Assembly: GCA_027622655.1 (NCBI GenBank)
Contig: JAQBYI010000008.1
Span: forward strand, 1 to 64,000
Source of the DNA: Gemmatimonadota bacterium
GTDB lineage: Bacteria > Gemmatimonadota > Gemmatimonadetes > Gemmatimonadales > Gemmatimonadaceae
Length of the DNA: 64,000 bases
Reading direction: 5' to 3'
Made by a program: the position numbers and the translations under genes. Under the pieces are notes generated by a model, which did not search any database, was not told the DNA's origin, and saw nothing but the letters and a program-made list of their open reading frames with translations. Shown here piece after piece: positions 18,509 to 42,679 of this stretch. Within the stretch, counting starts at the first letter, position 1. Each line of letters starts with the position of its first letter.

Positions 18509-19221
18509 TGCGTTCGGCGGTCCACTTCATTCCTATCGCGACGACGATCCTCGCGCTCGTGTTTTCCGTCGAGCTCTTTCGGCGGTGGCGCAAGCGCGGA
18601 GGGCGTCACCATCTCTGGTTCGCTATTGGCGCGCTTACGTATGCCGCAGGAACGATTACCGAATCTGCAACGACGCTCTTCGGATGGAACGAGGCGGTGT
18701 TCCGCGCATGGTACATCTCGGGTGCACTGATGGGCGGTGCACCGCTGGCGCAGGGTTCGGTGTACCTCCACCTCAAGCGCCGGACCGCGGACCGACTGAC
18801 GGTGGCGTTGATCGTGGCGATCGTGACCGCGAGCGTGTTCGTACTCGCGAGTCCTGTCAGATCGGAACTGGTCGAGCAGTACCGGCTGACCGGGAGCGTG
18901 TTTGAATGGTCGTGGGTGCGTGCATTCAGCCCCTTCATCAATACCTACGCGTTTGTCTTCCTCGTCGGTGGCGCGCTGATCTCCGCGCGCCACTTCGCGA
19001 AATCGCTGACGACGCGCGACAAGTTCGTCGGAAACGTGATGATCGCGATTGGCGCGCTGCTCCCAGGCATCGGCGGAACATTTACGCGCTTCGGCTACAC
19101 GGAAGTGCTGTACGTGACCGAGTTCGTGGGGCTCGCGCTGATCTTTGCCGGGTACCGGCTGGTGATCGCCACGCCTGTCGCTATCGAGCCCTTGGAGGTG
19201 CCGCGTCGAGTCGCCGCATAA
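18508..19221 (+). CDS. Seven-helix membrane protein, sensor-domain-like
   Basis: 237 residues, start overlapping the receptor stop (TAATG). About seven membrane helices and no soluble domain. FRRWRKRGGRHHLWFAIGALTYA after helix 1 has the same spacing of Arg, His, Trp and Tyr as WRRGREPHFGWWTVAFGIYA in the histidine kinase at 14180-15508, so it may be a free sensor bundle from the same family. I know no characterised relative. Its last 41 bases overlap the convergent M28 peptidase gene. Confidence 0.7.
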   Translation: MRSAVHFIPIATTILALVFSVELFRRWRKRGGRHHLWFAIGALTYAAGTITESATTLFGWNEAVFRAWYISGALMGGAPLAQGSVYLHLKRRTADRLTVALIVAIVTASVFVLASPVRSELVEQYRLTGSVFEWSWVRAFSPFINTYAFVFLVGGALISARHFAKSLTTRDKFVGNVMIAIGALLPGIGGTFTRFGYTEVLYVTEFVGLALIFAGYRLVIATPVAIEPLEVPRRVAA

Positions 19222-20122
19222 AATCGGCTACGGTCGTGGCGCTGCGGAAGAAGAATCCCGGCTCTATGCGGTTCGGAAAATCCGTCGGCTTGTGGTAGTC
19301 CGGGTGATCTTCGACGCCGAAATAGATCCACGGAATCTTCTTCTCATGGAACGATCCATGGTCCGACTGGGTCGTCCAGTCCTCGTGCCCTCCGCCGGAG
19401 TCGTGACCGGCCTTGAGCGTCACGCCTGAGACCTTGATCGTCGCGTCGAGAAGCGGCTTGAACTGCGGATTCGGCGTCGTGCCAGCGGCATAGAGTTCGC
19501 CCTTCTCATTCCGGCCCACCATGTCGAGGTTCACGTTCGCGATGATGCTCGCGAGCGGAACAGGCGGGTCGGCGACGAATGCACGGGAGCCGAGCAGTCC
19601 CGTTTCTTCACCGTCCCAAAGCGCGATGATCACGGAATGAGCCGGGGGATGCGCCTTGAGCCACGCAGCGATTGCGAGCACCGCGGACGTGCCCGACGCG
19701 TTGTCGTCTGCGCCCGGAAAGACCTGCTCGTTCCGGACACCAACGTGATCGTAGTGCGCCGAAAGAACGATGTACCGATCGGGCGTGCGCGTTCCCTTGA
19801 CGAGCGCGACGAGGTTCGTGCCTGCGACTGTCATTCCACCACGGCCCTGCGTGGTGAACGGCATGGTGAAATCGTCTCCCTGCATCGGCGCGTTTCCGAT
19901 GGCCTTGAGGCGGGCGAGCAGGTACGTGCGCGCGCGCTCACCACCCGGCGTACCGATGCGGCGACCCTCCATCGAGTCGGCCGCCAGTGCAAAGAGATCG
20001 CGGACGAGCTGAGCGGAGTCGAGTTGCGGAATCTGAGCGAGGGCCTGCCTGGGACCCGAGGCTATTGTGGCTGCAGCGAGCAGCAATGCGAAGAGCAAGG
20101 CGAACAAACGGGAGGTCGGCAT
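19181..20122 (-). CDS. Secreted M28 family zinc aminopeptidase
   Basis: 313 residues from ATG 20122. The signal peptide ends RQALA before Gln. M28 ligands occur in order: His and Asp in VLSAHYDHVG, bridging Asp in GADDNASGTSA, catalytic Glu pair in ALWDGEETGLLGSRAF, Asp in VNLDMVGR, and a final His in DYHKPTDF. It should remove N-terminal amino acids in the periplasm or outside. A longer frame upstream to 20191 lacks a signal peptide start and is disfavoured. Confidence 0.9.
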   Translation of the reverse strand: MPTSRLFALLFALLLAAATIASGPRQALAQIPQLDSAQLVRDLFALAADSMEGRRIGTPGGERARTYLLARLKAIGNAPMQGDDFTMPFTTQGRGGMTVAGTNLVALVKGTRTPDRYIVLSAHYDHVGVRNEQVFPGADDNASGTSAVLAIAAWLKAHPPAHSVIIALWDGEETGLLGSRAFVADPPVPLASIIANVNLDMVGRNEKGELYAAGTTPNPQFKPLLDATIKVSGVTLKAGHDSGGGHEDWTTQSDHGSFHEKKIPWIYFGVEDHPDYHKPTDFPNRIEPGFFFRSATTVADFMRRLDAAPPRAR

Positions 20123-20268
20123 TCCGGAAGATATCCCGTCTGGGCGTGGAACGAGGCGGCTCCGCGAGCTAGAATGACGAATCCCCAACAAACCGAAATA
20201 CCGATGTCGATCACCTACGGCAGAGCGGGCTGAGCATATGGCGATCGCGAACGCGGGCGAGCAGTAGG

Positions 20269-20760
20269 ATGGCTGGTTCCGGCCGTCGCCGGCCGCGACG
20301 AGGAGGCCCGGGCAGGGGCGCGACCGCGGAAACGTCGCAGCCCACCGGGCGTGCGGCCTACCAAGACACCCGTGCCTGGCTCCTCCGGACGCACGGTCAC
20401 GTCTGCGCCTACTGCGGCCTCGATTTTCCAGCTCGGTCGCTTACGCTCGACCATGTGACGCCGCGACGCGGTCAGTCGGCGTACGATCGGCGCGACAACC
20501 TCGTTCTTGCGTGCACGCGTTGCAACACTGCCAAGTCCGACAAGTCGTTCCTGGCGTGGGTGCTCGGTGCGCGCACGCGAGCTACGCACCTCTACCGGTA
20601 CGGCCAGCACCTGAGCGAGGGAATCCTCGAGGTACTCCGCCCAATGGTCGACGAGGACGTGGTCATACCGTCCAAGCCGAAGCCGAAACCGAAGAAGCGG
20701 CCGCCGAAGCAGAAATTTGCGCCCCACCCGGACGACGGAACGTCGCCGTACCTCGACTAG
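20269..20760 (+). CDS. HNH endonuclease
   Basis: 163 residues. The core VCAYCGLDFPARSLTLDHVTPRRGQSAYDRRDNLVLACTRCNTAKSD is an HNH nuclease with two CxxC zinc pairs and the catalytic DH. Both ends are basic and disordered (RRRPRRGGPGRG; PKPKPKKRPPKQK). The opening and the adjacent DUF-free architecture match the abundant stand-alone HNH proteins of unclear role (repair or restriction-like). It is not next to methylase or phage genes, so a restriction role has no support here. Confidence 0.88.
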   Translation: MAGSGRRRPRRGGPGRGATAETSQPTGRAAYQDTRAWLLRTHGHVCAYCGLDFPARSLTLDHVTPRRGQSAYDRRDNLVLACTRCNTAKSDKSFLAWVLGARTRATHLYRYGQHLSEGILEVLRPMVDEDVVIPSKPKPKPKKRPPKQKFAPHPDDGTSPYLD

Positions 20761-27372: not shown

Positions 27373-28569
27373 CTACTGCACCGCGTTGATCATGTCGAAG
27401 ATCGGCAGGTACATGGCAACGACCATGCCGCCGACGACGACGCCGAGGAACACGATCATCAACGGCTCGAGCAGTGAAAGCAGGTTGCTGACCGCGGCGT
27501 CGACTTCCTCGTCATAGAAGTCGGCGATCTTGGACAACATTTCGTCGAGACCGCCTGTCTGTTCACCAACGGCGATCATTGAGATGACCATCGGCGGAAA
27601 CACGGCGCTCTTCGCGAGCGGTGCGCTGATCGTATCGCCACCGGCGATGGACGATCGGCTCGCCATGATCGCGTCTTGAATCACCCGGTTGCCGGCAGTC
27701 TTGGCGGTGATCTCGAGTCCGTCGAGAATGCTGACGCCCGAACTGATGAGCGTGCCGAGCGTGCGTGTGAACCGGCTCACCGCCGACTTGCGGATGACGT
27801 CTCCGAGCACGGGCACCTTCAGCATCAGGCGGTCGATCACGAGCTGGCCATTCTTCGTGGCATAATAGCGCTTGGTAAACTGGAATCCGGCAAATCCGAC
27901 ACCAGCGAAGACATACCAGTACCCTCGCAGGATGTTCGACGCGGCGACAACGATGCGTGTCGGAAGCGGGAGCACGAGGTTCACGCTGGCGAACATCGAC
28001 TGGAACACCGGGATAACGAAAATCAGCAGCACGCTGATCGCGATGGCGGCCACGCTGAAGATCACGCCTGGATAGATCATCGCGCCTTTCACCTTGCGCA
28101 CGAGGGCGTCGTTCTTTTCCATGAACGTCGCGAGGCGCATGAGGATCGTGTTGAGAATACCACCGGCCTCACCGGCGGCCACCATGTTCACGTACAGGTC
28201 ACTGAAGGCCTTGGGGTGCTTCGCCAGCGCGTCGGCCACGGTGTGCCCCGACTCGACGTCGAACACGACCTGTCGTGTAACGGCGGAGAGCGCTTTGTTG
28301 TCCGTCTGCTTGGAGAGAATGTCAAGCGCCTGCACGAGCGGGAGCCCGGAGTTGATCATCGTCGAGAACTGCCGCGTGAAAATCACGACGTCGCGCATCG
28401 CGATCGGCCCCGCAACCGTCTTTTTCGACTTGGACGACTCCTCTACCTTGACGACGTTCAGTCGCAGCTTGCGCAGCTGCTGAACGACGTCCTCGCGGTT
28501 CGTGGCCTCGATCGTGTCGGTCTTGAGCGCGCCTCGTTGGTCGCGCGCTGTGTAGGTAAACGTCGGCAT
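27373..28569 (-). CDS. pilC: Type IV pilus inner-membrane platform PilC
   Basis: 398 residues, normal length. Two GspF repeats: first with FTRQFSTMINSGLPLVQALDIL and MVAAGEAGGILNTIL, second with FTRTLGTLISSGVSILDGLEIT and MISMIAVGEQTGGLDEML-type sequence. Three membrane helices, the last at LLEPLMIVFLGVVVGGMVVAMYLPIF. PilC couples the PilB and PilT motors to pilus assembly and retraction. It is the last gene of pilB-pilT-pilC. Confidence 0.96.
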   Translation of the reverse strand: MPTFTYTARDQRGALKTDTIEATNREDVVQQLRKLRLNVVKVEESSKSKKTVAGPIAMRDVVIFTRQFSTMINSGLPLVQALDILSKQTDNKALSAVTRQVVFDVESGHTVADALAKHPKAFSDLYVNMVAAGEAGGILNTILMRLATFMEKNDALVRKVKGAMIYPGVIFSVAAIAISVLLIFVIPVFQSMFASVNLVLPLPTRIVVAASNILRGYWYVFAGVGFAGFQFTKRYYATKNGQLVIDRLMLKVPVLGDVIRKSAVSRFTRTLGTLISSGVSILDGLEITAKTAGNRVIQDAIMASRSSIAGGDTISAPLAKSAVFPPMVISMIAVGEQTGGLDEMLSKIADFYDEEVDAAVSNLLSLLEPLMIVFLGVVVGGMVVAMYLPIFDMINAVQ

Positions 28570-28664: not shown

Positions 28665-29822
28665 TCATTTGCGGCCCTGCGATCCCTTCGGCCCGGTGCC
28701 TGATTCGCGCACGCCGGTGTCTTCGCCGGGCGTCTTGCCGATGAGGCGCAGGAACTCGTTCGGGTCGCCCGAAACGCGCAGGCATTCTTCCTCGTCCACT
28801 TCACGATTCATATACAGCGCGTAAAGCGCATCGTTCATGGTCTGCATACCGTACTTCTTGCCGGTCTGCATCGACGAGTAGATCTGGTGAATCTTGTCGT
28901 CGCGGATGAGCGCACGAATGGCCGACGTGATGACGAGAATCTCGCACGCCATGGCCCGCCCCTTCCCGGACTTCTTGGGGAGGAGCGTCTGCGTGATGAT
29001 TCCCTCCAGCACGAACGCCAGCTGCGCCCGCACCTGCGATTGCTGGTGACTCGGGAACACGTCGATAATGCGGTTGATCGCCTCGGCCGCGGAGTTGGTA
29101 TGCAGCGTCGCGAATGCCAAGTGGCCCGTCTCGGCGATGGTCAGCCCGGCATGGATGGTCTCCAAGTCGCGCATTTCGCCCACGAGCACGATGTCGGGAT
29201 CCTCGCGCAACGCGTACTTGAGCGCCGACGAGAACGACTTTGTATCCGTACCAACCTCGCGCTGGTTGATGATGCAGCTTTGGTGCTTGTGAATGAATTC
29301 AATCGGGTCTTCGACAGTGATGATGTGGCCCTTTCGTTCCCTGTTGATCTTGTCGATCATGGCTGCGAGCGTCGTCGATTTACCCGAACCGGTCGGGCCT
29401 GTTACGAGGACGAGCCCGCGAGGCTTCTCGGCCATCTTGATGATCGCCGCCGGCAGGTTCAACTCGGCTGCGGTCTTGATCGTGATCGGAATCTGCCGCA
29501 TCACCATCGACACGCATCCGCGCTGCTTGAAGCAATTGCCGCGGAACCGCGCCAGGTTCTGGATGCCAAATGAGAAGTCGAGCTCGTCTTCCATCTCAAA
29601 TCGTTTCTTTTGTTGCTCCGTGAGTACCGAATAGGCCACCTGGAGCGTGTCCTTCGGCGTGAGGACGAAGGTGTTCTTCGACGCAGTGATGTCGCCGTCA
29701 ATGCGCATCTGGGCACACACGCCAGCCGTAATGTGCAGGTCGGACGCGCCCCGCTCGATCATTTCCTCGAGCAAAGCGCGAAGGTTGACGCCCTGTGGCG
29801 CGGCAGCTGCGGGAGCAGTCAT
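28665..29822 (-). CDS. pilT: Pilus retraction ATPase PilT
   Basis: 385 residues. Opening ALLEEMIERGASDLHITAG, Walker A GPTGSGKSTTLAAMID, Asp box EDPIEFIH, Walker B PDIVLVGEMRDLETI, His box GHLAFATLHTNSA, and the AIRALIRDDKIHQIYSSMQ segment found in PilT. It drives pilus disassembly, twitching and DNA uptake. The message before its ATG has no purine ribosome site but a long pyrimidine tract (29823-29879). Confidence 0.96.
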   Translation of the reverse strand: MTAPAAAAPQGVNLRALLEEMIERGASDLHITAGVCAQMRIDGDITASKNTFVLTPKDTLQVAYSVLTEQQKKRFEMEDELDFSFGIQNLARFRGNCFKQRGCVSMVMRQIPITIKTAAELNLPAAIIKMAEKPRGLVLVTGPTGSGKSTTLAAMIDKINRERKGHIITVEDPIEFIHKHQSCIINQREVGTDTKSFSSALKYALREDPDIVLVGEMRDLETIHAGLTIAETGHLAFATLHTNSAAEAINRIIDVFPSHQQSQVRAQLAFVLEGIITQTLLPKKSGKGRAMACEILVITSAIRALIRDDKIHQIYSSMQTGKKYGMQTMNDALYALYMNREVDEEECLRVSGDPNEFLRLIGKTPGEDTGVRESGTGPKGSQGRK

Positions 29823-29879: not shown

Positions 29880-31712
29880 TCAGGCAGTCGTTTCGCGAAT
29901 CACCTGCTCGAGCGGGACCACGCCCTTCATCACCTTCAACCAACCATCCATGCGAAGCGTGAGCATTCCCTGCTCAACCGCCCCGTCGCGGATCTCGGCC
30001 GCGCCGACGTTTTGCAGGATGAGCTTGCGAAGCACCGCGTTCATGAACATCACCTCATAGAGCCCCTGACGGCCTTTCGTGCCGGTCCCACCGCACTGGT
30101 CGCATCCGGTGCCTTTGAAGTACGGCAGCTCTCCGATCTTCGTAGCCAACGAGAGGTTTTTCAGGAACGGGGCGGCTTCCTTCGACGCGTTGGCTTTTGC
30201 GCCCCGCAGAGCCTCCTCCGTAAAGCGCAGCGACTCGAGCGTCGTGTCTTGTTTGACCTTGGCCGTTTCGAGCTCGAGATCGTCGGGCTGGTACTTCACC
30301 TTGCAGTTCGGGCAGACGCGGCGGACGAGGCGTTACGCGAGGACCAGATTGAGCGCCGAGCTGACGTTGAACGGCTCAAGGCCTATGTCCATGAGACGCG
30401 TGACCGTCTCCGGCGCCGAGTTTGTATGCAACGTTGAGAGCACCATGTGACCCGTGAGCGCGGCCTTGATCGCGATGCCACCGGTCTCGAGGTCGCGAAT
30501 CTCGCCCACCATGATGATGTTCGGATCCTGCCGCAGGAACGCCTTCAGCGCCGCGGCAAACGTCATCCCGATTTCGTTGCGCACGAGCACCTGATTGACC
30601 CCATGGAGGTTGTACTACACCGGATCTTCCGCCGTCATGATGTTCGTGTCGATCGTGTTGACCTTCGACAGACACGAATACAGCGTCGTAGTCTTGCCCG
30701 ATCCGGTCGGTCCGGTCACGAGCACCATGCCGTACGGGTTGGTGACGGCTTCCATCAGCTCTTTTTCGGCTCGCGGCTCGATGCCGAATTTCTCGAGATC
30801 GAGCGTCAGGTTTCCCTGGTCGAGAATTCGCAGCACGATCTTCTCGCCGAACAGCGTCGGCAACGTCGACACGCGGAAGTCGACGACCTTCTTCTTGCCC
30901 ATCCTCAGCTTGATGCGACCATCCTGCGGTACGCGACGCTCAGCGATGTTCAGCGACGCCAGGATCTTGAAGTGCGAAACGAGCGCCGGTTGCAGTTTTT
31001 TCGGCGGCTTCATGATTTCCGTCAGCTCGCCGTCAATCCGGTACCGCACGCGGACGTCGTGCTCGAAGCACTCGAAGTGAATATCCGAGGCGCCTCGCTT
31101 GACCGCGTCCACCAGGATGCCGTTGATCAGCTTCACAACAGGTGCGTCGTCCACCGCCGCGGCAAGCGCGGCCGCCGACATTTCTTCGTCCTTCTCGTCG
31201 ACGACTTCTGCTTCGTCGCCCTCGTCCGCCTCGATTTCCTCGAGGAGCGCGGACATTTGGAGCTCGCTCGACTCGTAGTGCTTTTCGATCGCGTTGCGCA
31301 GCGTGAACTCGCCTGCGATGACCGCCTGGATGTCGTAACGCGTGATGAACTTCAGGTCTTCGACGACCGCGAAGTTTGTCGGGTCGGCCATCGCGACCGT
31401 CAGCACCCGGCCGTCCCGCTTGAGCGGAAGCACGAGGTTCTTCACCGCGATGTCGGCTGGAATCAACTTCAGCAGCTTTGGATCGGGCTCGAACTTGGAC
31501 AGGTCGACGGCCTGCATCTTGGACTGGCGCGCAAGCACGCGCACGAGTTCCAGTTCCTGAATGAAGCCAAGCTTGATCAGGTTGTAGCCAACCCTGATTC
31601 CGTTCTGCCGCTGTTCCTGGAGCGCCTTATCGAGCTGCTCCTTGGATATCAGTCCCTCCTTGAGCAGGAGGTCGCCGATGCGTTCGTTGGGACTCGGAGC
31701 GGGAGATGCCAT
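29880..31712 (-). pseudogene. pilB: Pilus assembly ATPase PilB with two in-frame stops
   Basis: A single reading frame of 610 codons encodes a complete PilB: an N-terminal GspE-N domain (NERIGDLLLKEGLISKEQL), Walker A TGPTGSGKTTTLYSCLSK, Asp box TAEDPV, Walker [16 protein letters not shown], His box [17 protein letters not shown], and the zinc motif CPNCK...CDQCGGTG. It is broken by TAG at 30615-30617, where the family has Glu (EDPVEY), and by TAA at 30333-30335, where Gln is expected (VLAQRLVRRVC). Each is one base from the expected codon and there is no frameshift. A functional motor needs all parts, so as read the gene is dead unless the stops are errors or are read through. ATG 31712 follows an ATATAT run with no ribosome site. 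Confidence 0.88.
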
Positions 31713-31882: not shown

Positions 31883-32608
31883 TTACGGCCTGGAAAAGGT
31901 GACGTGGGTCGCAATTCGACCGGCCAACGAGCGCCCTATGCCGCGCACCCTCTGCAGCTCCGCGAGCGACCCGAAGGGACCCCGCAATCGGCGATCCTCG
32001 ACGATCCGCGCGGCAAGCACCGCCCCAAGTCCCGGCAGAGTGGCTATGGCGTCGGCGCCCGCGGTGTCGAGGTCGACCAGTGTCGTGTCCGGCACCCAAG
32101 CCAGTGTCGAAGCTGTCGAAGCTGTCGGAGCTGGCCCGCGCTCAGGGGTCCGAACTGTCGCGCCTGCCGCAGGCGGCTTCGGCGGTGGCCCCCGTTGGCG
32201 GGCGAGCTCGGCAGCGCGTTCCGAGACCCGCGCACGCGCATCGGAATTGGCGCGTTCGACCGCAAGCCGCCGCGCTTCATAGAGTTCGAGCGACGGAGTC
32301 GTGCGTGCGGAACCGCCGGCGCTCACCCGAAGGCGCGACTCTGCCGAATTTTCACGTTGCGGCACCGCCGCCGCTGACTTTGGTGCGCGCTGTGGTGCTC
32401 GCTTTGGACGGCTGGCGGCTGGCGCGCGCGGTCTCTGGCTCGCCGATTTCGCGGCATCGACGGCTTGGATCTGCCGTTCGAGTGCCGCAACGGACCGTGC
32501 GTCGGCGGCGGTGGCCGCGTTCCGCTCGAAGAATCCGCGCGCGGCAGCGCCGAGGGCGGCAAGCGCAGCGAGAAAGACGAGCGCCTTGCGTTCGGCTGGC
32601 GTCGGCAT
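31883..32608 (-). CDS. ComEA-like helix-hairpin-helix protein
   Basis: 241 residues from ATG 32608. A single N-terminal membrane anchor (ALVFLAALAALGAAARGFF), a long charged Ala/Arg/Pro-rich spacer, and at the C-terminus a HhH DNA-binding domain: VDLDTAGADAIATLPGLGAVLAARIVEDRRLRGPFGSLAELQRVRGIGRSLAGRI. This is the ComEA layout: membrane-tethered DNA receptor in competence. ComEA works with type IV pili, and the pilus genes follow on the same strand, so natural transformation is plausible. The spacer is longer than usual. Confidence 0.85.
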   Translation of the reverse strand: MPTPAERKALVFLAALAALGAAARGFFERNAATAADARSVAALERQIQAVDAAKSASQRPRAPAASRPKRAPQRAPKSAAAVPQRENSAESRLRVSAGGSARTTPSLELYEARRLAVERANSDARARVSERAAELARQRGPPPKPPAAGATVRTPERGPAPTASTASTLAWVPDTTLVDLDTAGADAIATLPGLGAVLAARIVEDRRLRGPFGSLAELQRVRGIGRSLAGRIATHVTFSRP

Positions 32609-32683
32609 GCGCAACGATGCCGCCCCTGCCGGACCGCATCGTTACCGATTCGCTGCGTGGCGAACCGGAATCACGCACGTGCT

Positions 32684-33712
32684 CTATCTGAGCAGCGCCA
32701 TCGCGACGTCGCCGACGATCTGGAGCGATCGGGCGCTTACGCGGCTGATGTCGTCGCCCATCGCATGGTGGACGTTGTAGTCAAGGTCAATCACGTCAAT
32801 CACCCTCAGGCCAGCAGCGAGCAACGGATAGTGGTCGTCAGTGATCGTGTAGGTCCGCATGTCGGGCAGGAAATACTCTTCGTAGCCCAACTCCTTGGCC
32901 TTGGCCCACACACGCTGCACGACTTCCGGCGCTTTCTGCGCTGAATACATCTCCTGCGGAATATTGAGATCCGCATCACCAATCATGTCCCACACCACTC
33001 CAAAAAGGGGCCTGTACTCCGGCGTCGGCAGGTGCGATGCGAAATACGTTGAGCCGAGGAGCACGTCCACATCGGGACCAAACGTGCCGTAGTCCTCGCC
33101 GTCCACGAAGAGCAGGTCCACCCCGGCTGACGGCGGCGCCTTCTTGAGCGCGTCCGCCACCGCGAGCAGGAGCGCAACGCCGCTCGCGCCGTCGTTGGCG
33201 CCAGGAATCGGCTTGTCATGGTTGGCCGGATCGGGATCACTGTCCGCGCGCGGACGCGTGTCCCAGTGCGCGACGTATAGAATCCGCTCCGTCGCGTCGG
33301 GCCGGAAACGCGCAAAAATGTTGCGCAGCGGAATCTTCTGGCCCGATGCGAGCGTGTGCGTCCACTTCTGCTCAGTGACCTGATCGGCGGTGGCCTGCAG
33401 CCGTGTCACAATCCAATCACCGGTCTGTTGCCACCCGGGCGTGCCCGGCACGCGCGGACCGAACGCGAGCTGCTGCCGCACGTAGCTCATGGCCGAATCC
33501 GCATTGAACTCCAACCGAGCCGCCGCACTTACCGTGCGCGCATCGCCACCCGTCGAGCAGCCGTCCAGGACAGGTGCCAGCAGGAGCAGAAGTGTGAGCG
33601 GCAGTGCGAGCGCTTTTGCGAGCGCTTTTGCGAGCGCTTTTGCGAGCGGCAGCACGCGGCGGCCGAGTATCCGGCGCGTCGAGCCAAAGGCGATCGTGAC
33701 AGGTGCGATCAT
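32684..33712 (-). CDS. M28-type glutaminyl cyclase-like lipoprotein
   Basis: 342 residues. The signal sequence has a lipobox (VLDGC) and a KALAKALAKALALP stretch from three 12-base repeats. Zinc site and catalytic residues: LYVAHWDTRPRAD, GANDGASGVALLL (Asp ligand), FVDGEDYGTFGPD (Glu-Asp, as in bacterial glutaminyl cyclases), DMIGD, and NVHHAMGDDIS (final His). This is the glutaminyl-peptide cyclotransferase branch of M28, which turns N-terminal Gln into pyroglutamate, though an aminopeptidase role is not excluded. Its ATG overlaps the stop of sprA. Confidence 0.78.
   Translation of the reverse strand: MIAPVTIAFGSTRRILGRRVLPLAKALAKALAKALALPLTLLLLLAPVLDGCSTGGDARTVSAAARLEFNADSAMSYVRQQLAFGPRVPGTPGWQQTGDWIVTRLQATADQVTEQKWTHTLASGQKIPLRNIFARFRPDATERILYVAHWDTRPRADSDPDPANHDKPIPGANDGASGVALLLAVADALKKAPPSAGVDLLFVDGEDYGTFGPDVDVLLGSTYFASHLPTPEYRPLFGVVWDMIGDADLNIPQEMYSAQKAPEVVQRVWAKAKELGYEEYFLPDMRTYTITDDHYPLLAAGLRVIDVIDLDYNVHHAMGDDISRVSARSLQIVGDVAMALLR
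33606..33648 (+). repeat. Tandem 12-base repeat in signal peptide
   Basis: The unit gcgagcgctttt occurs three times plus 7 bases. It lies inside the coding region of the cyclase-like gene (minus strand), encoding Lys-Ala-Leu-Ala units at the n/h-region of the signal peptide. In-frame length changes by slippage would alter the signal helix without breaking the gene. Confidence 0.85.
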
Positions 33713-36700
33713 CGCAGTTCCCCCGCAAAAAACGAGATCTGCAGTACGGCCGACAGGACGATCTGCGAAATCCGGCGATTGAGGTTGTTGTCGAACGTGA
33801 CGATCCTCGCGCCCTGAAGCGAGAACGTGAGGTAGTCCGCCACGTCGGTATCCGCATTGAAGCTAACCGCCTCACGACCGTTGTCCGCCAGTCGGCTGCG
33901 CAACGCGTTCGCGCCGGCCGTCTCGACCCAGCTCGTCGTGGACGTCCGCTGAAAGGCCAGTCGCGTCCGAAGACTGCTCTTCATTTCCCAGTCCCGCGGC
34001 AACTGAAACGCTCTCGTAATGTCACCACCGATATCTCGTGACCTCGCGTCCACGCGCGTTCCCGGGAGCGAGTCAATGCGCCGAGTGGTCGCGACAGAGA
34101 AACCGGTCACGAGACCGCCGACGTCGTTCCACGCGATCGACGCGCTCATCGGGTAGCTTTGCGTGCGCCCGGAACGCACGTCGCTCGGCCGTCCGGCAGC
34201 TCCGGGAATGACGCTATTCTGAGATGTAGCAACGAACCGCGCGCTCGTCGTGATGCTTGTCAGGAATCGATCGAGACCGCGCGGACGGAGCGTCGCCCGC
34301 ATCGAAAGGTCGGGAAGCGTGACCATGTCTCCATCCACGATGACCTCCGACCGGTCCGGTCGCCGCAACCAGTTGCGGGCAGCGAGCCGCTGCGTGCGCG
34401 CGTCGAGCGTGATACCCAACGGGAGCCGCAATCCTGTGGCCACCGCGACCTGTGTGTTGCTGCTGGCCGTTGTTGCGAGGAATCCGTTGTCGCTGAGAAA
34501 CGCGCCTTCCCCACCCCACCCAAACTGCATACCAAGGCCGGGCGTTCGCGGGGTTCCGTCGTAGCTGGACGATATCGTGCGGGTGACCGATGCCTCGATC
34601 GGGATCAACGTGCGATCGAACCGTGCGAGCGTCGCCGAATCGGAGCTCCACGCCCGGCTCAGGCGCGCAATGTCGAATGCGACGGCGCCATTGATGATCT
34701 GCGCAGCGTTCACCTGGCGTGGAAGGCGCAACGCTCCGACGGTGTCTCCCACTTGAAGTAGTACTCTCGCGTTCGGATCGCGAAGGTGACCGTAGCTCGT
34801 AACCATGCCCGCGCGGGGGCGAATCCACCCCTGCAATTGCGGCGCGAGTGTGTACGAAGTGGTAAGCGACCGTTCCCGCTCAAGACCGGCATCGAGTCCC
34901 AGTATCTGGTCGCGTTCGGTCGTCGCCGCAATGGCTGTAGCTGTTGAGTCGCCGTAGCGCACGAGATCGCGCGTGCTGCTGAGCTCCACTCGCGCGACGA
35001 ACGCCTCGAACGGCTTCAGCTCCACCGAGGTCGCGTTGCGCCATGCGTTGACCTGCCCGTCAACGGTACGCGCGGAATCGCGAAGCGAGGCGGCGGCAGT
35101 GAGAAAGTCGGCGCGACTCTCATCGGACGAGACAAAGTTGCCGCTCGCGCGGAACTCCGCTGGCTGAAGCCGCGGCTTTGCATCGCGGAGTGTCTTCACC
35201 AACTCGGCATCGCCAAGCCAGCCGGGAAGGCGGTCGAATGCGCGCACCCACCAACCGGGCATTGTTCCGGCCGGCGACGTGCCGCCAACGGAATAGTCGA
35301 GCCCCGCGGTGAACCGCGACTGGTCGGCAACCTGAAACTCGGTTCGCGAATTGTTCGACCCGGCTCCGGCGGTCGCCGAGAGATTGTTCAGCAGGGGCGC
35401 CATCCAGCTACCAACCATTGGCGTAGCGCGCCGCACCGTGAGCGATACAGTGGCCGAGCGCTGTTCTGGAGTTCGCAGGCCAGCGATGTCGCCCGCGCGC
35501 ACGTCGGACCGGGTGAGAAACTCCGGATTCGAAGAACCGCGGGCGATGGTTGCGGTGAGCGGCACGACCCACCCGCCCGCGCCGCGAAGGAACTGGTCGA
35601 GGCGAATGGTCGTCGACAGTTCTACCCGCTCGTCCGACACGTACGTCGGGGCCTCGGTGAGTTGGCGGAAATTCGGATCGCGCCGCGAAACACTGAACCG
35701 CATCTGGACGGCGTCGCCGAGATTCGCCTGCGCGGAAACCTGCCCGGCGTACCCCGGCGTGCTCACGACGCCGGAGAGCCGGATGTCGTCCACCCACACT
35801 TCAAGCGAGTCGCCCGGGAGGATTCTCGATGTGCCACCGCCGGTGGAGTCGACACGAATCATGCCGACGGCGAGTTCCTGCACCGCCGAGAGGTTCGGCG
35901 GACTGACGACCGGGTCGGCCGCATATACGATGTAGCCGTCGCGACACGCCGCATACCGACGCGAAATCTGAGTGAGTGGCGGTGCACTCTTCTCAATCAG
36001 CGCCAGATCGGCCCCGGAACAGGCGATCGAATCAGGCCGGTTCTGGAGATAGGCGTTCTCGAGCTGCGCGCGCAACGCATACAGTTTCTCGAAGTCCACA
36101 CGCACCTCAGGAAGCCACGCGGCTGCCGTCATCCCGGCTCCGACGGGCGTCCGGTACGCGTAGAAGCTGTTCGGATCGCGACCGATCTTCACGAAGAACT
36201 GCAGTTCGCCGTCCTGACCCCATCCGTTTCCGCGGCCGCGGGCCCACACGCGTAACTCGCGGTATTGGCGGAAATTCTTCGCACCCTCCGGAAACTTGTA
36301 GAAGGCTTCGGCGCGCTCGAGCGGAGCCAGCGACGTCGCCGTCAGGCGCAACGAACGCTCGTTGATCACGATCAGTTCGTTTTCCAGGCCAGTGAGCTTT
36401 CGCTCGGCCTCGTCAACGACGCCAGGCGGCGACTGGTACCCAAGCACACTCAAGGAATCCTGCGTTCCAACCACGCCGGCAAAGACGAGCCCGTTGCCCG
36501 CGCGCTCGCCGCCGATACCCGTGATCGTGCGATCAGAGCGCTTGAGCCAACTCGCACCAACGAGGCGGAGCCGCGAAATCACGACCTGTGAGAAGTCGGA
36601 ATCGGCCACACCCGAGCCTGATACCATGGTGAGTCGCATCGCGCGCACGCGCTGGATGGACGGCCCACCATTGATCGTGTCTACGGGCGCCGCGAACGGG

Positions 36701-39700
36701 AGACGCACGAGCACCCAGCATTGCTTGGGCGCCGCCGGCCCGAGTGGGTCGTTCGGCGCCGGACGGCAACCGCCGACACGTGTCCAGGCGGCCGGATCTG
36801 ACAGGTCGGCGACGTATCGAAACAGGCGTTCCTGCTCTCGCTGCGCGCCGTCCAAGTTCAGCACGTTGTCACCGTCGATGTCCCACTCGTCGAGGCGTCC
36901 GTTCCCAACCGTGCAGTTTGTCCGCGTGTCTCCGAGCCGTGCCACCTGCAGGTTTCCGCGTGCGCACATAGGCACGTTCGTCGCAAGGCCACCGGCGCCG
37001 GGCGTCGTGACGATCAGGCGCGGCACCACGTCGCCGGGAAGTCCGTTGTCGTTGGTGGCCTGATTGAAGGCCCGGGAGAACGGATCGCGTTCCGATTGGA
37101 GCGTGTCACGCCCCACCACCGCGCGGCCACTCCACGTCGAGTCCGCACCCGATACTGTGAGTTGCGTGGGCACAATGGCTACGCTGTTCTCGCTCGGATC
37201 GCCAAGATCGACGACGAACGTCGGGTTTCGATTTCGGCGCACAGCAGCCGTGTCCACGAGCGCCCAGAACTCGATAGACTCCTTTCCGGTCAGGTTCACG
37301 CCTGACGCCGGCCCCAGCACCTGACGGATTGAACGCCAGCGACGGCCACCCTGCGCTGCGCCCGTCTGCCACCGGTACCGTTTGGCTACGTCGTCGTACG
37401 CACCGCCGACCGAAAGCGGATAGAGCGTCATCCACATCACCTGTTCGGGCTGCGAGATTCCCGCGCCGGAAAACTTCGTGAGCGGATCGATTTCCTGCAG
37501 GGTGAACCGGGGCACGGAATCACCCAGCGTGAGCCCGTTGGTCTGCCACGAGATCGTACTGGCGCGCGACAGATCCAACGTCGCAGCGCCGATGCGTCCG
37601 GGCAGCGCGCGGCCGAGCGCAGGCTGGCTGGAGACGTACCACGCCGGGTCGGCAAGTGAAACGCGAAACGCACCGTCGTTCTCGAACGTCGCGAGGTACG
37701 CCTGCCCCGACGCGCCCGCCTGCGGCAGGCTCGTGGCAAACTCTCCCTCCAGCCTCAGGCGCGATGGCGTCACTGGATCTACCCCAGTGAGGCGACGGGC
37801 TGCGCGCGCGAACGCCGGCACGTCGAACGAGTAGGCGCCGCTCAGACCGGCCACGATCGCGGACTCGTCGGCGAACCCAAGATCCGGACGCGTGAAAGCC
37901 GAATGCTGGCGTTGGCCGATCGCCACGAAGTTCAGCTCGCCGTGCGACGAGGCGAACTGAGATGCGATTCCAAAAATGCTCGTCGGTGTCGAAACGAAAA
38001 TCGGTGTTTCCTCGAACCGCACGGTTACCTGACGTGGGCCCGCCGACGCGAGGTCCGACCGCAGCAGCGTTACGCGCCCGAGGTCGTAGTCAACCAGATA
38101 GTCCATGTCGCGCCGAAGCACGGTGCCATCGTCGAGCACCAGGCGCTCTGACCGCGGGCGAAGCTGAGTGGACCCCAGCGAGAACGACGTCGCATCGGCG
38201 CCGCCCTCGGATTCGAATCTGAGCCGGAGCCGATACTGCGGCTGGGGATGCAACGCCGAGTAGAGGTCCTCGTTGGCGGCAGTATAGATCGCATCGTTCG
38301 CCGGATCGGCCGGGTTGGTGATCAGTCCGGCGCGCGCGAACGGCTGCAGCGACGGAAAGACCACGAACCGCTCTCGCACCACTGACGATGACGCTGAGCC
38401 CGATAGCGACATTACCGGGTCGCCGCGGCGCGGAAAGAGCCTCCCCTCGGCGTCGAACGCCGTCGGCGTGCCGAGCTTGGCCATTCCCAGGAGTTGCAGA
38501 AATGTCGCGGCCGATCCGCCCGGCGGAGCTTCCTGATCGAACGTCCCCCCGGTCGCGACCCTCAGTTCCACCGATTCGCGGCGCACGTCCTCGCCGCCAA
38601 CACGGTACGCTGCGCGAATTTCGCGGAAGAATGCATCGTCGCCTGGTCGCACATTCGGGTCCCACAGGAGCGAGGCGAACTGGTCGCGTCCGGCGATGAA
38701 CGTGACATCAGGCGTTCCACCAGTCGTCGCGATGACCGTGTCGCGTCCGCCGACGCGAACGGAGTACGCCACCACAAGCCGTTCCTTGTTCGGATCGAGC
38801 GGCTGGGTGAGCAACACCCAGAGCTGCGACGGGTCAACGTAGAAATCCACGTTTTCACGCAGTGGCTCGTACACCGGGCCTGTGCGCGACGACGGATCCC
38901 CAATGAGCCTGAACTGTGGCCCGTTCGGATTGGGCGGCTGCCCGCCGATCAGCTGCCGATACAGCGATATGCGCGTGGGACGAACGCTGTCCGGAAGTTG
39001 GGCTGCGAGTGATGCGAGCCGCGCGCCATCGAGAATGTCGATATTCGGGTAGCCGGCGAATCTGCGCGGATCGACGGTAAAGAAGAACCGCCGCGCCTCG
39101 ACCTGGTAATCATCAATCTCCAGCGCTCCCGACTGCGCCCCGCTTCCACCAATCGTGAACACGCGATCGCGCTGCACGATTCCCTTTTGTTCGGCCACTA
39201 TGGCCCGCACACTGACGCGGCCGAACTTCGCTGCCGCCTGTACGCCGTAGTTGCCCTGAGGAATGCCGGCCGTGATGAACCGCGACGCCGGCATTTCAAA
39301 TGACACGTTTCCCACGTCTACCCGCTGCAACCATGCGTCAGGCCGACCCGCGTACGAGAGAGCTATGACGTTGGAACCGTCGAATTCACGGCGTGAGTCG
39401 TAGTCGACATCCGTCCGGACCCTGTCGGCGATGGTGCCGCCGGTCTTGAGCGCGAACTGGAAATCCGGGCTTGGCTGGAACGACGCCTTGCACTGGGCGC
39501 CGAAGACGAGGAACTGGCTCGCCACGCACCGCTCGTTCCGAATCCGCTCTGTCTTGAACTCGAACCGCCCGTTGAACTGCAGGCCGAGGTCACTGCCAGG
39601 CCCGAACAGTCTCGCAAAAAGCGAGTCGCCCGGGGTGCTGACCGAATCGCGGTGGGCAGCCGTATCCCGCCGTGCCTGGGCGGTATCGGCGCCAGCCTGA

Positions 39701-39771
39701 AGCCCAGCGGCCGGCGACGCGGCGACGCAGAGGGCCACGAGGGTAGCAATCGGGGGACGGAAAAATCGCAC
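33709..39771 (-). CDS. sprA: SprA/Sov-type giant outer-membrane translocon protein
   Basis: 2020 residues from a GTG start. The N-terminal signal sequence is followed by the SprA N-terminal signature: VDYDSRREFDGSNVIALSYAG, VDVGNVSFEMPASRFITAGIPQGNYGVQAAAKFGRVSVRAIVAEQKG, DDYQVEARRFFF, then FVVFPSLQPF-type segments and a very long run of alternating beta strands to the C-terminal FSLQGARIVTF...ISFFAGEL. SprA is the outer-membrane pore of the type IX secretion system, normally about 2400 residues in Flavobacteria. No other type IX gene is in the window. Its product is followed by an overlapping glutaminyl-cyclase-like gene. No strong promoter found; TATACT and its reverse lie at 39809-39814 in the divergent gap. 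Confidence 0.82.
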   Translation of the reverse strand: MRFFRPPIATLVALCVAASPAAGLQAGADTAQARRDTAAHRDSVSTPGDSLFARLFGPGSDLGLQFNGRFEFKTERIRNERCVASQFLVFGAQCKASFQPSPDFQFALKTGGTIADRVRTDVDYDSRREFDGSNVIALSYAGRPDAWLQRVDVGNVSFEMPASRFITAGIPQGNYGVQAAAKFGRVSVRAIVAEQKGIVQRDRVFTIGGSGAQSGALEIDDYQVEARRFFFTVDPRRFAGYPNIDILDGARLASLAAQLPDSVRPTRISLYRQLIGGQPPNPNGPQFRLIGDPSSRTGPVYEPLRENVDFYVDPSQLWVLLTQPLDPNKERLVVAYSVRVGGRDTVIATTGGTPDVTFIAGRDQFASLLWDPNVRPGDDAFFREIRAAYRVGGEDVRRESVELRVATGGTFDQEAPPGGSAATFLQLLGMAKLGTPTAFDAEGRLFPRRGDPVMSLSGSASSSVVRERFVVFPSLQPFARAGLITNPADPANDAIYTAANEDLYSALHPQPQYRLRLRFESEGGADATSFSLGSTQLRPRSERLVLDDGTVLRRDMDYLVDYDLGRVTLLRSDLASAGPRQVTVRFEETPIFVSTPTSIFGIASQFASSHGELNFVAIGQRQHSAFTRPDLGFADESAIVAGLSGAYSFDVPAFARAARRLTGVDPVTPSRLRLEGEFATSLPQAGASGQAYLATFENDGAFRVSLADPAWYVSSQPALGRALPGRIGAATLDLSRASTISWQTNGLTLGDSVPRFTLQEIDPLTKFSGAGISQPEQVMWMTLYPLSVGGAYDDVAKRYRWQTGAAQGGRRWRSIRQVLGPASGVNLTGKESIEFWALVDTAAVRRNRNPTFVVDLGDPSENSVAIVPTQLTVSGADSTWSGRAVVGRDTLQSERDPFSRAFNQATNDNGLPGDVVPRLIVTTPGAGGLATNVPMCARGNLQVARLGDTRTNCTVGNGRLDEWDIDGDNVLNLDGAQREQERLFRYVADLSDPAAWTRVGGCRPAPNDPLGPAAPKQCWVLVRLPFAAPVDTINGGPSIQRVRAMRLTMVSGSGVADSDFSQVVISRLRLVGASWLKRSDRTITGIGGERAGNGLVFAGVVGTQDSLSVLGYQSPPGVVDEAERKLTGLENELIVINERSLRLTATSLAPLERAEAFYKFPEGAKNFRQYRELRVWARGRGNGWGQDGELQFFVKIGRDPNSFYAYRTPVGAGMTAAAWLPEVRVDFEKLYALRAQLENAYLQNRPDSIACSGADLALIEKSAPPLTQISRRYAACRDGYIVYAADPVVSPPNLSAVQELAVGMIRVDSTGGGTSRILPGDSLEVWVDDIRLSGVVSTPGYAGQVSAQANLGDAVQMRFSVSRRDPNFRQLTEAPTYVSDERVELSTTIRLDQFLRGAGGWVVPLTATIARGSSNPEFLTRSDVRAGDIAGLRTPEQRSATVSLTVRRATPMVGSWMAPLLNNLSATAGAGSNNSRTEFQVADQSRFTAGLDYSVGGTSPAGTMPGWWVRAFDRLPGWLGDAELVKTLRDAKPRLQPAEFRASGNFVSSDESRADFLTAAASLRDSARTVDGQVNAWRNATSVELKPFEAFVARVELSSTRDLVRYGDSTATAIAATTERDQILGLDAGLERERSLTTSYTLAPQLQGWIRPRAGMVTSYGHLRDPNARVLLQVGDTVGALRLPRQVNAAQIINGAVAFDIARLSRAWSSDSATLARFDRTLIPIEASVTRTISSSYDGTPRTPGLGMQFGWGGEGAFLSDNGFLATTASSNTQVAVATGLRLPLGITLDARTQRLAARNWLRRPDRSEVIVDGDMVTLPDLSMRATLRPRGLDRFLTSITTSARFVATSQNSVIPGAAGRPSDVRSGRTQSYPMSASIAWNDVGGLVTGFSVATTRRIDSLPGTRVDARSRDIGGDITRAFQLPRDWEMKSSLRTRLAFQRTSTTSWVETAGANALRSRLADNGREAVSFNADTDVADYLTFSLQGARIVTFDNNLNRRISQIVLSAVLQISFFAGELR

Positions 39772-39923
39772 GTCGTTGCGGACCCGGGCCCGAGAACGGG
39801 GTATCAGCTATACTTGTAGCGACGTTCGGTTACACGCTGGCCCGTGAAATATACGGTCCGACCGAAGCCCTACAACCCTTTGTGCTGCAGGGAGTTCGGC
39901 AACTTGGCCGCCACCGACGAATC

Positions 39924-41570
39924 GTGAGAATAATCAGCCGTTACGTCCTTCGTGAACACGTAGGGCCGCTCGTCTTTTCGATGTCGGCTCTGACGTCGTT
40001 GCTTTTGCTGAATTACGTAGCAAAGCAGTTGCCGAATCTCGTGGGCAAGGGACTCCCGTGGAACGTGATCGCGGAGTTCGTCCTGCTCTCGCTTCCGTTC
40101 ACGATCGCGATGACGCTGCCGATGGCGGTGCTCGTCGCCACGCTGCATGCATTTAGTCGGCTCGCCGCCGACAGCGAGATCACGGCGTTCAAGGCGAGCG
40201 GCATGGCGCTACCGCGCGTCATGCTCCCGGTGGTCGTAGCTGGGCTCCTCCTGTCAGCGCTCATGGTCGTGTTCAACGACCGGGTGATGCCAGCTGCGAA
40301 CTTCGAGTTGCAATCGCTGATGAACGACATCGCCCGCAAGAAGCCGACGTTCGCGCTGCGTCCCCAGGTCATTAACGAGATAGCGCCGCGACGGCTCTTC
40401 CTCAGCGCAGGGCAACTGGAGGGCGGCTCCAGCGAGATGCGCGACGTCACGATCTACGACTTCTCGGACGGACAACGACGGCGCACGATTCGGGCGGACT
40501 CCGGGCACGTCGAGCTCTCGGCTGATGGTCGCGACCTTCTGCTCACGCTCTGGGACGGCTACGTGAACGAGGTCAATCGCACCGAGATGGGTCGGCTGCA
40601 GCGCGTGTTTTTTGAGACGAACTTCGTCCGCGTTCACGGAGTTGGGAACGACCTTGAGCGCAGCACGCTGGCCGGTGAAAAAAGCGACCGCGAGCGCACG
40701 GTGTGCGAGTTGCAGGCACAGCTGAGCATGGCGATCCACCAGCGCGACAGCCTGCTGGCAGGAATTCGCACGCTCGATTCGGCCGCGGCCGCCGCGATTG
40801 GCACCCGCTCGATCGGCGCGAGCAGCGGGTCTGCATACTGCGGATTTCTGATGATGCTGAGCACGAAGGTCGCGCAAGCGACGACTGTCGCTTCGATTGC
40901 ACGCCAGGGAGGTGCGCCCGACTCCACACGGCCGCGGCCGGACAGCACCCAGAAGGGCAGCGCCGACACGACCGCAGCGATCGCCGCAGCGATCGCCGCA
41001 GCGATCGCCGCGTCGGGCAGCGATATCGTGCAGGGCGGTGCTCCGGTGACGACCGCCGTGCCCGAGGGCAATGATCCCATTCGGCGCGGCGGCGTGTTGT
41101 TGCCGTCACCTGGCAACGAGCAGGAACTGATTGAGTCCCGACCTGCCTTGCTCGCAGGAATGAAGATTCAGGTGGCAAACGCACAGCGGGTGATCAACGG
41201 CAACCAGGTTGAAATCGAAAAGAAGTTCGCGATTGCGACCGCGTGCGTCATTTTCGCGCTGCTCGGCGCGCCAATCGCGTTCAGGTTTCCGCGCGGCGGC
41301 GTTGGACTCACAATTGGCGTGAGTCTCGCCGTATTCGGCGTTTACTACATCGGCCTTATTGCCGGCGAGGAACTCGCTCGAAGGGGCCTCCTGCCGGCCT
41401 TCGTCGCCATGTGGGCGACCAATGCCGCGCTCCTGCTGACCGGAATCGTCCTCACGGCCCGGCTTGGCACCGAAGGGACAACGCACCGCGGCAGCGAACT
41501 CTCGGAGCGACTGGCCCGATTGAACGTGCGCATCCGACGCCGTTTCGGTCGCGCGCCGGCAGCGACCTGA
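39924..41570 (+). CDS. lptF: LPS transport permease LptF with a repeat-bearing insertion
   Basis: 548 residues from GTG 39924, which gives the typical start RIISRYVLREHVGPLVF. YjgP/YjgQ family: three membrane helices at each end (EFVLLSLPFTIAMTLPMAVLVATL; KKFAIATACVIFALLGAPIAF). The periplasmic jellyroll region is enlarged compared with E. coli LptF (366 residues): about residues 270-410 form a low-complexity Ala/Pro/Ser stretch with an (AAIA)n run from 12-base repeats. LptF forms the permease with LptG that extracts LPS; the gene after it is lptG. Confidence 0.92.
   Translation: MRIISRYVLREHVGPLVFSMSALTSLLLLNYVAKQLPNLVGKGLPWNVIAEFVLLSLPFTIAMTLPMAVLVATLHAFSRLAADSEITAFKASGMALPRVMLPVVVAGLLLSALMVVFNDRVMPAANFELQSLMNDIARKKPTFALRPQVINEIAPRRLFLSAGQLEGGSSEMRDVTIYDFSDGQRRRTIRADSGHVELSADGRDLLLTLWDGYVNEVNRTEMGRLQRVFFETNFVRVHGVGNDLERSTLAGEKSDRERTVCELQAQLSMAIHQRDSLLAGIRTLDSAAAAAIGTRSIGASSGSAYCGFLMMLSTKVAQATTVASIARQGGAPDSTRPRPDSTQKGSADTTAAIAAAIAAAIAASGSDIVQGGAPVTTAVPEGNDPIRRGGVLLPSPGNEQELIESRPALLAGMKIQVANAQRVINGNQVEIEKKFAIATACVIFALLGAPIAFRFPRGGVGLTIGVSLAVFGVYYIGLIAGEELARRGLLPAFVAMWATNAALLLTGIVLTARLGTEGTTHRGSELSERLARLNVRIRRRFGRAPAAT
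40972..41011 (+). repeat. Tandem 12-base repeat in lptF
   Basis: ccgcagcgatcg occurs three times plus 4 bases, in frame, encoding Ala-Ala-Ile-Ala units in the periplasmic insertion of LptF. It could change copy number by slippage without a frameshift. Confidence 0.85.
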
Positions 41571-41599
41571 TTCGCAACACGCTGCGAAACGAACCCGCC

Positions 41600-42679
41600 T
41601 TGCGCCTCCGCCCGCTCGATCGCTACGTATTCCGCGAGTTCCTCGGCATTTTCGCCGCGGCGACCGTCGGATTTCCTGTGCTCGTGATCGTGCTGGACGT
41701 GACCGAGAGTCTGGGCAAGTATCTGCAGCGCGAACTGCCGCCGTTCGACATTGCGAGAGCGTACCTGTACGCGGTGCCGGAAACGATGTTTCTGGTACTC
41801 CCGGCCGCGGTCCTGTTCGCGACCGTGTTTTCGATTGGTTCATTCACGCGCCACTCGGAAATCACGGCGGCGAAGGCGAGCGGAATCAGTTTTCACCGAT
41901 TCATCGTTCCGATTGCGCTCGGCGCACTGGTCTCAACGGGACTTGGCCTGGCACTCGCGGCCATCACGCCGGATGCGAACCGCATGCGCGGCGAGCTGCT
42001 TCGGGAGCGGGAGGCACGCAACACGAACTTCCGCGCGAATTTCACATTCTCCAGTGAAGACGCCCGGGTCTACAAGATTGGCGGCGCGGACGCCCTCCAG
42101 GGCGCGCTCGACGACGTTGAGATTGAACGTCGCGGCACCGGCCCCGATTACCCGAGCTACGCCCTTTTCGCTCGCAACGCCCGGTACACGGTGGAAACCG
42201 GATGGACGTTGCGGCAAGGTAACTTCCACCTCATGCCAACCGACTCGACGACGCTCTCCGTGGCATTCGACTCGCTGCGGGATCGCGGATTCCGGGAAGC
42301 TCCGCGCGTACTGATGGCCGACCCCCGGGCACCCGAGGAAATGGACTATTTCGCCCTCGGCGCGTATATCCGGCAGATGGAACGTTCCGGCGTTGACGTG
42401 AATAAGTTCCGGACTGCCCGAATGTTCAAGCTCGCAATCCCCGCCACCTGCGTCATCATCATGCTATTCGGAGCGCCACTCGCCACCACAGCGCAACGCG
42501 GCGGTCCGGCACTTGGCGTGGGCATCAGCCTCGCGACGACTGTCGTTTTCCTGATGCTCGTGCAGATGATGCTTGCCATCGGTGAAAAGGGGATCGTGAA
42601 TCCCGAGCTCGCGGCGTGGATACCCGGCATGGTGTTCGGCGTGTTCGGCACTGTACTGCTCGTGCGGGTGCGCACGTGA
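41600..42679 (+). CDS. lptG: LPS transport permease LptG
   Basis: About 359 residues from TTG 41600 (start tentative; no ribosome site seen). LRPLDRYVFREFLGIFAAATVGF opens like LptG, with the characteristic AYLYAVPETMFLVLPAAVLFATVFSIGSFTRHSEITAAKASGIS and a C-terminal helical bundle (FKLAIPATCVIIMLFGAPLATTAQRGG). It pairs with LptF; the LptB ATPase and other Lpt parts are not in the window. 29 bases lie between the lptF stop and this start. Confidence 0.92.
   Translation: MRLRPLDRYVFREFLGIFAAATVGFPVLVIVLDVTESLGKYLQRELPPFDIARAYLYAVPETMFLVLPAAVLFATVFSIGSFTRHSEITAAKASGISFHRFIVPIALGALVSTGLGLALAAITPDANRMRGELLREREARNTNFRANFTFSSEDARVYKIGGADALQGALDDVEIERRGTGPDYPSYALFARNARYTVETGWTLRQGNFHLMPTDSTTLSVAFDSLRDRGFREAPRVLMADPRAPEEMDYFALGAYIRQMERSGVDVNKFRTARMFKLAIPATCVIIMLFGAPLATTAQRGGPALGVGISLATTVVFLMLVQMMLAIGEKGIVNPELAAWIPGMVFGVFGTVLLVRVRT

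Follow-up and report, generated by a model that had tools for sequence, protein, structure and literature searches.

The stretch of DNA analysed here (the window, 64,000 nucleotides) belongs to a Gemmatimonadota genome of 3.14 Mb in 115 contigs. It carries a homologue of the translocon gene sprA/sov whose end runs into the start of a gene for an M28-family lipoprotein. The locus raises the question of whether the M28 protein is a glutaminyl cyclase (QC) and whether such an enzyme would serve the translocon or the cell as a whole. Both open reading frames were present exactly as given in the preliminary description, including the four bases that they share (Table 1). The SprA/Sov product matched NCBIfam TIGR04189 with 558 bits (cut-off 200) and SprA of PDB entry 6h3i with an E value of 2.9e-24. 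The downstream product matched Pfam M28 with 100.8 bits, contained the GEDYG motif and had a predicted lipoprotein signal peptide ending in LDGC, as had been proposed; the lipobox Cys that closes this signal peptide, Cys52, was invariant in the Gemmatimonadota alignment.

Table 1. Features of the sprA-M28 locus and the surrounding gene block, in window positions.
Feature	Position	Strand	Basis or remark
sprA/sov homologue, 2020 aa, outer-membrane translocon family	33709..39771	-	GTG start; TIGR04189 and PDB 6h3i matches
M28-family lipoprotein, probable type II glutaminyl cyclase, 342 aa	32684..33712	-	ATG start; Pfam M28, PgQC/TfQC match, active site, tree, fold
ATGA overlap; TGA is the last sprA codon, ATG the M28 start codon	33709..33712	-	sequence
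Shine-Dalgarno-like GGGGGA within the sprA 3' end, 6 bases ahead of the M28 start	33719..33724	-	putative function
Lipobox LDGC of the M28 protein, residues 49-52	33557..33568	-	Cys invariant in alignment
Asp174, zinc ligand (PgQC Asp149)	33191..33193	-	38/38 orthologues
Glu206-Asp207, catalytic Glu and bacteroidal-type zinc-ligand Asp (PgQC Glu182-Asp183)	33092..33097	-	38/38 orthologues
His316, zinc ligand (PgQC His299); preceding residue His, Trp298 in PgQC	32765..32767	-	
ComEA-like helix-hairpin-helix protein, next in block	31883..32614	-	Pfam HHH_3; conserved position
PilB-like ATPase ORF, conserved part from near 31712, two in-frame TAG codons	29880..32099	-	
Second T2SSE-family (PilT-like) ATPase of the block	28665..29822	-	Pfam T2SSE; synteny
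PilC/T2SSF-like membrane protein of the block	27373..28569	-	Pfam T2SSF; synteny
LptF-like permease, divergent upstream neighbour, conserved	39882..41570	+	Pfam LptF_LptG; synteny
LptG-like permease	41243..42679	+	Pfam LptF_LptG; synteny

The M28 protein was most similar to the bacteroidal cyclases TfQC and PgQC, which ranked first among PDB entries with E values of about 1e-57, while human QC and the aminopeptidase YwaD were far behind (1e-6). Its AlphaFold model (pLDDT 85.8) superposed on TfQC with Z 43.7 and 1.2 A over 275 residues, compared with Z about 30 for aminopeptidases and also for human QC. In the tree, QCs of Gemmatimonadota and Bacteroidota grouped together, apart from the M28 aminopeptidases of the same genomes, with support of 100/100. 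The zinc ligands and catalytic residues of QC were taken from Bochtler and Taudte. In PgQC numbering, Asp149, Glu182, Asp183, the Asp equivalent to human Asp248, the DDH motif and His299 were invariant in 38 of 38 orthologues, the window protein included. The protein shares with PgQC (PG_2157) and TfQC the family, the fold, the zinc ligands with Asp183, the catalytic Glu and the lipoprotein signal and, by inference, a periplasmic role in a Q-rule organism.

The substrate pocket was compared at PgQC Trp298 and also at Trp193/Phe294, and two residues differ. Trp193 was absent in all 38 orthologues, and the Trp298 position was occupied by His in 24 (including the window protein) and by Trp in 14; in the window protein, the loop before this position is shorter than in PgQC and TfQC. 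The absence of Trp193 and the His in place of Trp298 count against a QC, an objection that is tempered because His also fills the Trp298 position in 7d18, an Acidobacteriales entry deposited under the name glutaminyl cyclase. M28 QCs with solved structures exist outside Bacteroidota, in Acidobacteriales (7d18) and Fimbriiglobus ruber (7d1b), although both are weaker sequence matches to the window protein (E 1e-21 and 2e-36, respectively) than the Bacteroidota QCs. Most likely, the M28 protein is a type II (animal-type) glutaminyl cyclase, with a predicted cyclase activity. A second M28 protein is encoded in the window at 19184-20440 on the minus strand; it is clearly of aminopeptidase type, with DGEETGLLGS and Glu-Glu where QC has Glu-Asp, and it too has a predicted mature N-terminus with Gln in first place (QALA|QIPQLD).

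The pair was conserved among related genomes. SprA was present in 49 of 61 genomes, namely the window's own and 60 relatives. When loci from the class and phylum level were included, the 3' end of sprA was present in 64 loci and the M28 gene was the next gene in 44 of them. A four-base overlap of the form ATGA or GTGA occurred in 35 of these 44 adjacent pairs, in at least three families, and 27 of the 35 overlapping junctions carried a purine-rich motif resembling GGAG/GGGG within the 3' end of sprA. With such counts, the adjacency is more than chance. Five families (f1, f2, f3, f4 and f8) carried the pair; it was absent from f5 and f9, where the M28 gene, if present, was elsewhere in the genome, as in G101, in which M28 and sprA lie at 0.44 and 2.05 Mb of one contig. 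In Bacteroidota, SprA was found in the flanks of 0 of 80 QC loci (flanks of at most 10 kb, less where a contig ended) and QC in the flanks of 0 of 30 SprA loci; the control probes recovered 28 of these 30 SprA loci. The gene for PgQC adjoins PG_2158 and hemG (PMC10653852), unlike the M28 gene of the window. The answer to whether orthologues of the M28 gene usually lie far from sprA is therefore divided: they do not inside the order, and they do outside it, in Bacteroidota and in the deeper Gemmatimonadota families f5 and f9. The arrangement, which had been thought undescribed, was not found described in the literature searched.

Synteny across the loci of relatives showed a larger conserved block, in which lptG-lptF is divergent from sprA-M28-comEA-pilB-pilT-pilC. 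In the PilB-like gene of the window, the two in-frame TAG codons stand at positions where the usual motifs have Glu and Gln (AEDPV*YNLHG and LVLA*RLVRR). The relatives L035 and L036 align with this gene at 83 and 77% identity, and the TAG codons reflect either a pseudogene or a sequence error.

Whether exported proteins carry the substrate of such an enzyme was read from predicted signal peptidase I (SPI) sites. In the window genome, Gln stood at P1' in 9 of 32 sites against a background of 3.1%, in a sample of about 334 kb (about 11% of the genome) and with a crude, home-made predictor that was also used for the Bacteroidota comparison. The Bacteroidota control gave 23 of 66 and E. coli 0 of 15, and Gln was found at 5 of 20 sites in G157, which has no sprA, and at 10 of 23 in G071, a genome with a plant-type QC; the samples from the f5 genomes G101 and G070 were small, and four short loci from genomes with neither QC type contained too few signal peptides for a comparison. 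The frequency in the window genome was similar to that in Bacteroidota. By a simpler motif count, Gln reached 17% in the window genome compared with 3.0% inside proteins (p 3.7e-6), and 8% compared with 4.3% in E. coli (p 0.24). In most relatives, Gln is also the first residue of the predicted mature SprA, as read by eye. Predicted exported proteins of the window genome tend to start with Gln.

The literature (PMC10653852, PMC5837995) confines the Q-rule to Bacteroidetes, and periplasmic glutaminyl cyclisation is likewise described as theirs alone. The pattern here shares with the Bacteroidetes rule (Bochtler 2018; mBio 2023) Gln after the predicted SPI site together with a putative periplasmic QC of either animal or plant type; what differs is the phylum. 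Judged from predicted N-termini and gene content, the Q-rule apparently holds in Gemmatimonadota too. None of the titles and abstracts found reported the Q-rule in Gemmatimonadota or connected the phylum with pyroglutamate or SprA in a way that matters here.

The distribution of the two QC types was a further genomic test of the enzyme's function. Across 150 Gemmatimonadota genomes, 14 had both the M28-QC and the unrelated plant-type QC (PF05096, three weak matches left out), 93 had only the M28-QC, 33 only the plant type and 10 neither (for example G078, G079, G122 and G167). The two types were nearly complementary (Fisher p 1e-13, from raw genome counts that ignore shared ancestry), and no PF05096 protein was found in the window genome. 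Bacteroidetes likewise hold two QC lineages (PMC5837995).

SprA and the M28-QC were statistically independent over the same 150 genomes (76 with both, 30 with SprA only, 31 with M28-QC only and 13 with neither; p = 1.0), and the idea that the two co-evolve as a pair was dropped. The 31 sprA-less genomes that retain the M28-QC include G157, where it is at the same locus: lptG-lptF, M28, comEA, pilB, pilT and pilC are in place and sprA is cleanly missing. Conversely, genus g36 and others have SprA and a plant-type QC elsewhere in the genome.

Few parts of a type IX secretion system were detected. The window genome shares with such systems the SprA homologue and PorV-like proteins, but it had no match to PorU and a single match to the C-terminal domain (CTD), below the cut-off, in searches in which Bacteroidota and f9 genomes were positive; f9 genomes had PorU and 27-33 CTD matches. 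GldM/PorM was matched in no Gemmatimonadota genome, and this model may miss divergent forms because even the CTD-rich f9 genomes had no match. Other genomes of the window's class resembled the window genome in the PorU, GldM and CTD results. A full type IX system in the window organism was dropped as an explanation on these results.

One weak CTD match each was found in L298, L302, L303 and L304 (in the window's own genome G000:C67:67891-68061), at the end of similar-looking proteins, and the single-CTD proteins of several family genomes were open frames of about 880-935 aa. A single weak match per genome possibly reflects a one-cargo SprA system. In G086 (C6), G126 (C6) and G059 (C64), a CTD-bearing protein is encoded directly beside a PorV-like gene; the G059 contig also carries sprA, about 14 kb away from the pair.

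We weighed three other explanations of the locus. In one, the M28 gene encodes an ordinary aminopeptidase, and its place in the operon is a coincidence. M28 includes many aminopeptidases, the window protein has neither pocket Trp of PgQC, and human QC is no closer to its model than aminopeptidases are. Yet the Glu-Asp pair, against Glu-Glu in the paralogue, and a sequence, fold and tree position far closer to the QCs speak against an aminopeptidase, as do the complementarity with an unrelated QC family and the enrichment of Gln in exported proteins. We regard the aminopeptidase as improbable, and the glutaminyl-cyclase-like enzyme of the preliminary description is very probably what the gene encodes. 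A second explanation holds that the two genes are adjacent only because a conserved block has kept its gene order, and that the overlap is without regulatory meaning; it deserves more weight but is still doubtful. Four-base overlaps are common in bacteria, and the entire block lptG-lptF/sprA/qc/comEA/pilB/pilT/pilC is conserved. However, the exact overlap is kept although sequence identity falls to about 50% for both proteins, and most overlapping junctions have the ribosome-binding-like motif at the expected distance.

The remaining explanation is a dedicated unit of secretion, in which the QC is co-translated with sprA and matures SprA or its cargo; reinitiation would set the output of the cyclase to that of SprA, so that SprA and a few partners would be pyroglutamylated on leaving the inner membrane. 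The recurrent overlap in several families and the N-terminal Gln of SprA in most relatives are in its favour. Against it stand the independent occurrence of the two genes, the sprA-less genomes with a QC (one of them at the same locus), the pairing of SprA with a plant-type QC in g36 and others, the unlinked genes of Bacteroidota and of f5 and f9, and the few or no CTD cargo proteins of the window genome. In P. gingivalis, moreover, pyroglutamate is no sorting signal (PMC5837995). Such a unit is unlikely in our judgement, and the earlier proposal of a functional tie between the enzyme and type IX secretion is not supported by the co-occurrence counts, the G157 locus, the unlinked genes, the missing PorU and GldM matches and the single CTD match below the cut-off.

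The independence of SprA and QC, the G157 locus and the few type IX parts point instead to a periplasmic QC of general function, encoded in one operon with sprA. We consider it probable that the cell, as a Q-rule organism, uses the M28 lipoprotein as its general-purpose type II QC in the periplasm, and that the link of this enzyme to sprA is one of expression in an operon and not a dedicated partnership. Signal peptidase I would expose an N-terminal Gln on many exported proteins, and the membrane-anchored QC would cyclise it to pyroglutamate, with SprA as one substrate among many. The gene lies in the conserved envelope block lptG-lptF / sprA-qc-comEA-pilB-pilT-pilC and would be transcribed together with sprA. 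The ATGA overlap and the ribosome-binding-like stretch inside the sprA 3' end suggest termination-reinitiation, through which translation of the QC would follow that of sprA; translational coupling of the two genes is likely.

The sprA-less locus of G157 is a natural experiment that separates the cyclase from the translocon. If the Q-rule is true in Gemmatimonadota and either of two unrelated cyclases can stand in for the other there, the pathway would have an earlier origin, or be acquired more readily, than has been assumed. What it serves, namely protection of exported proteins and not type IX sorting, would be testable in a free-living soil phylum.
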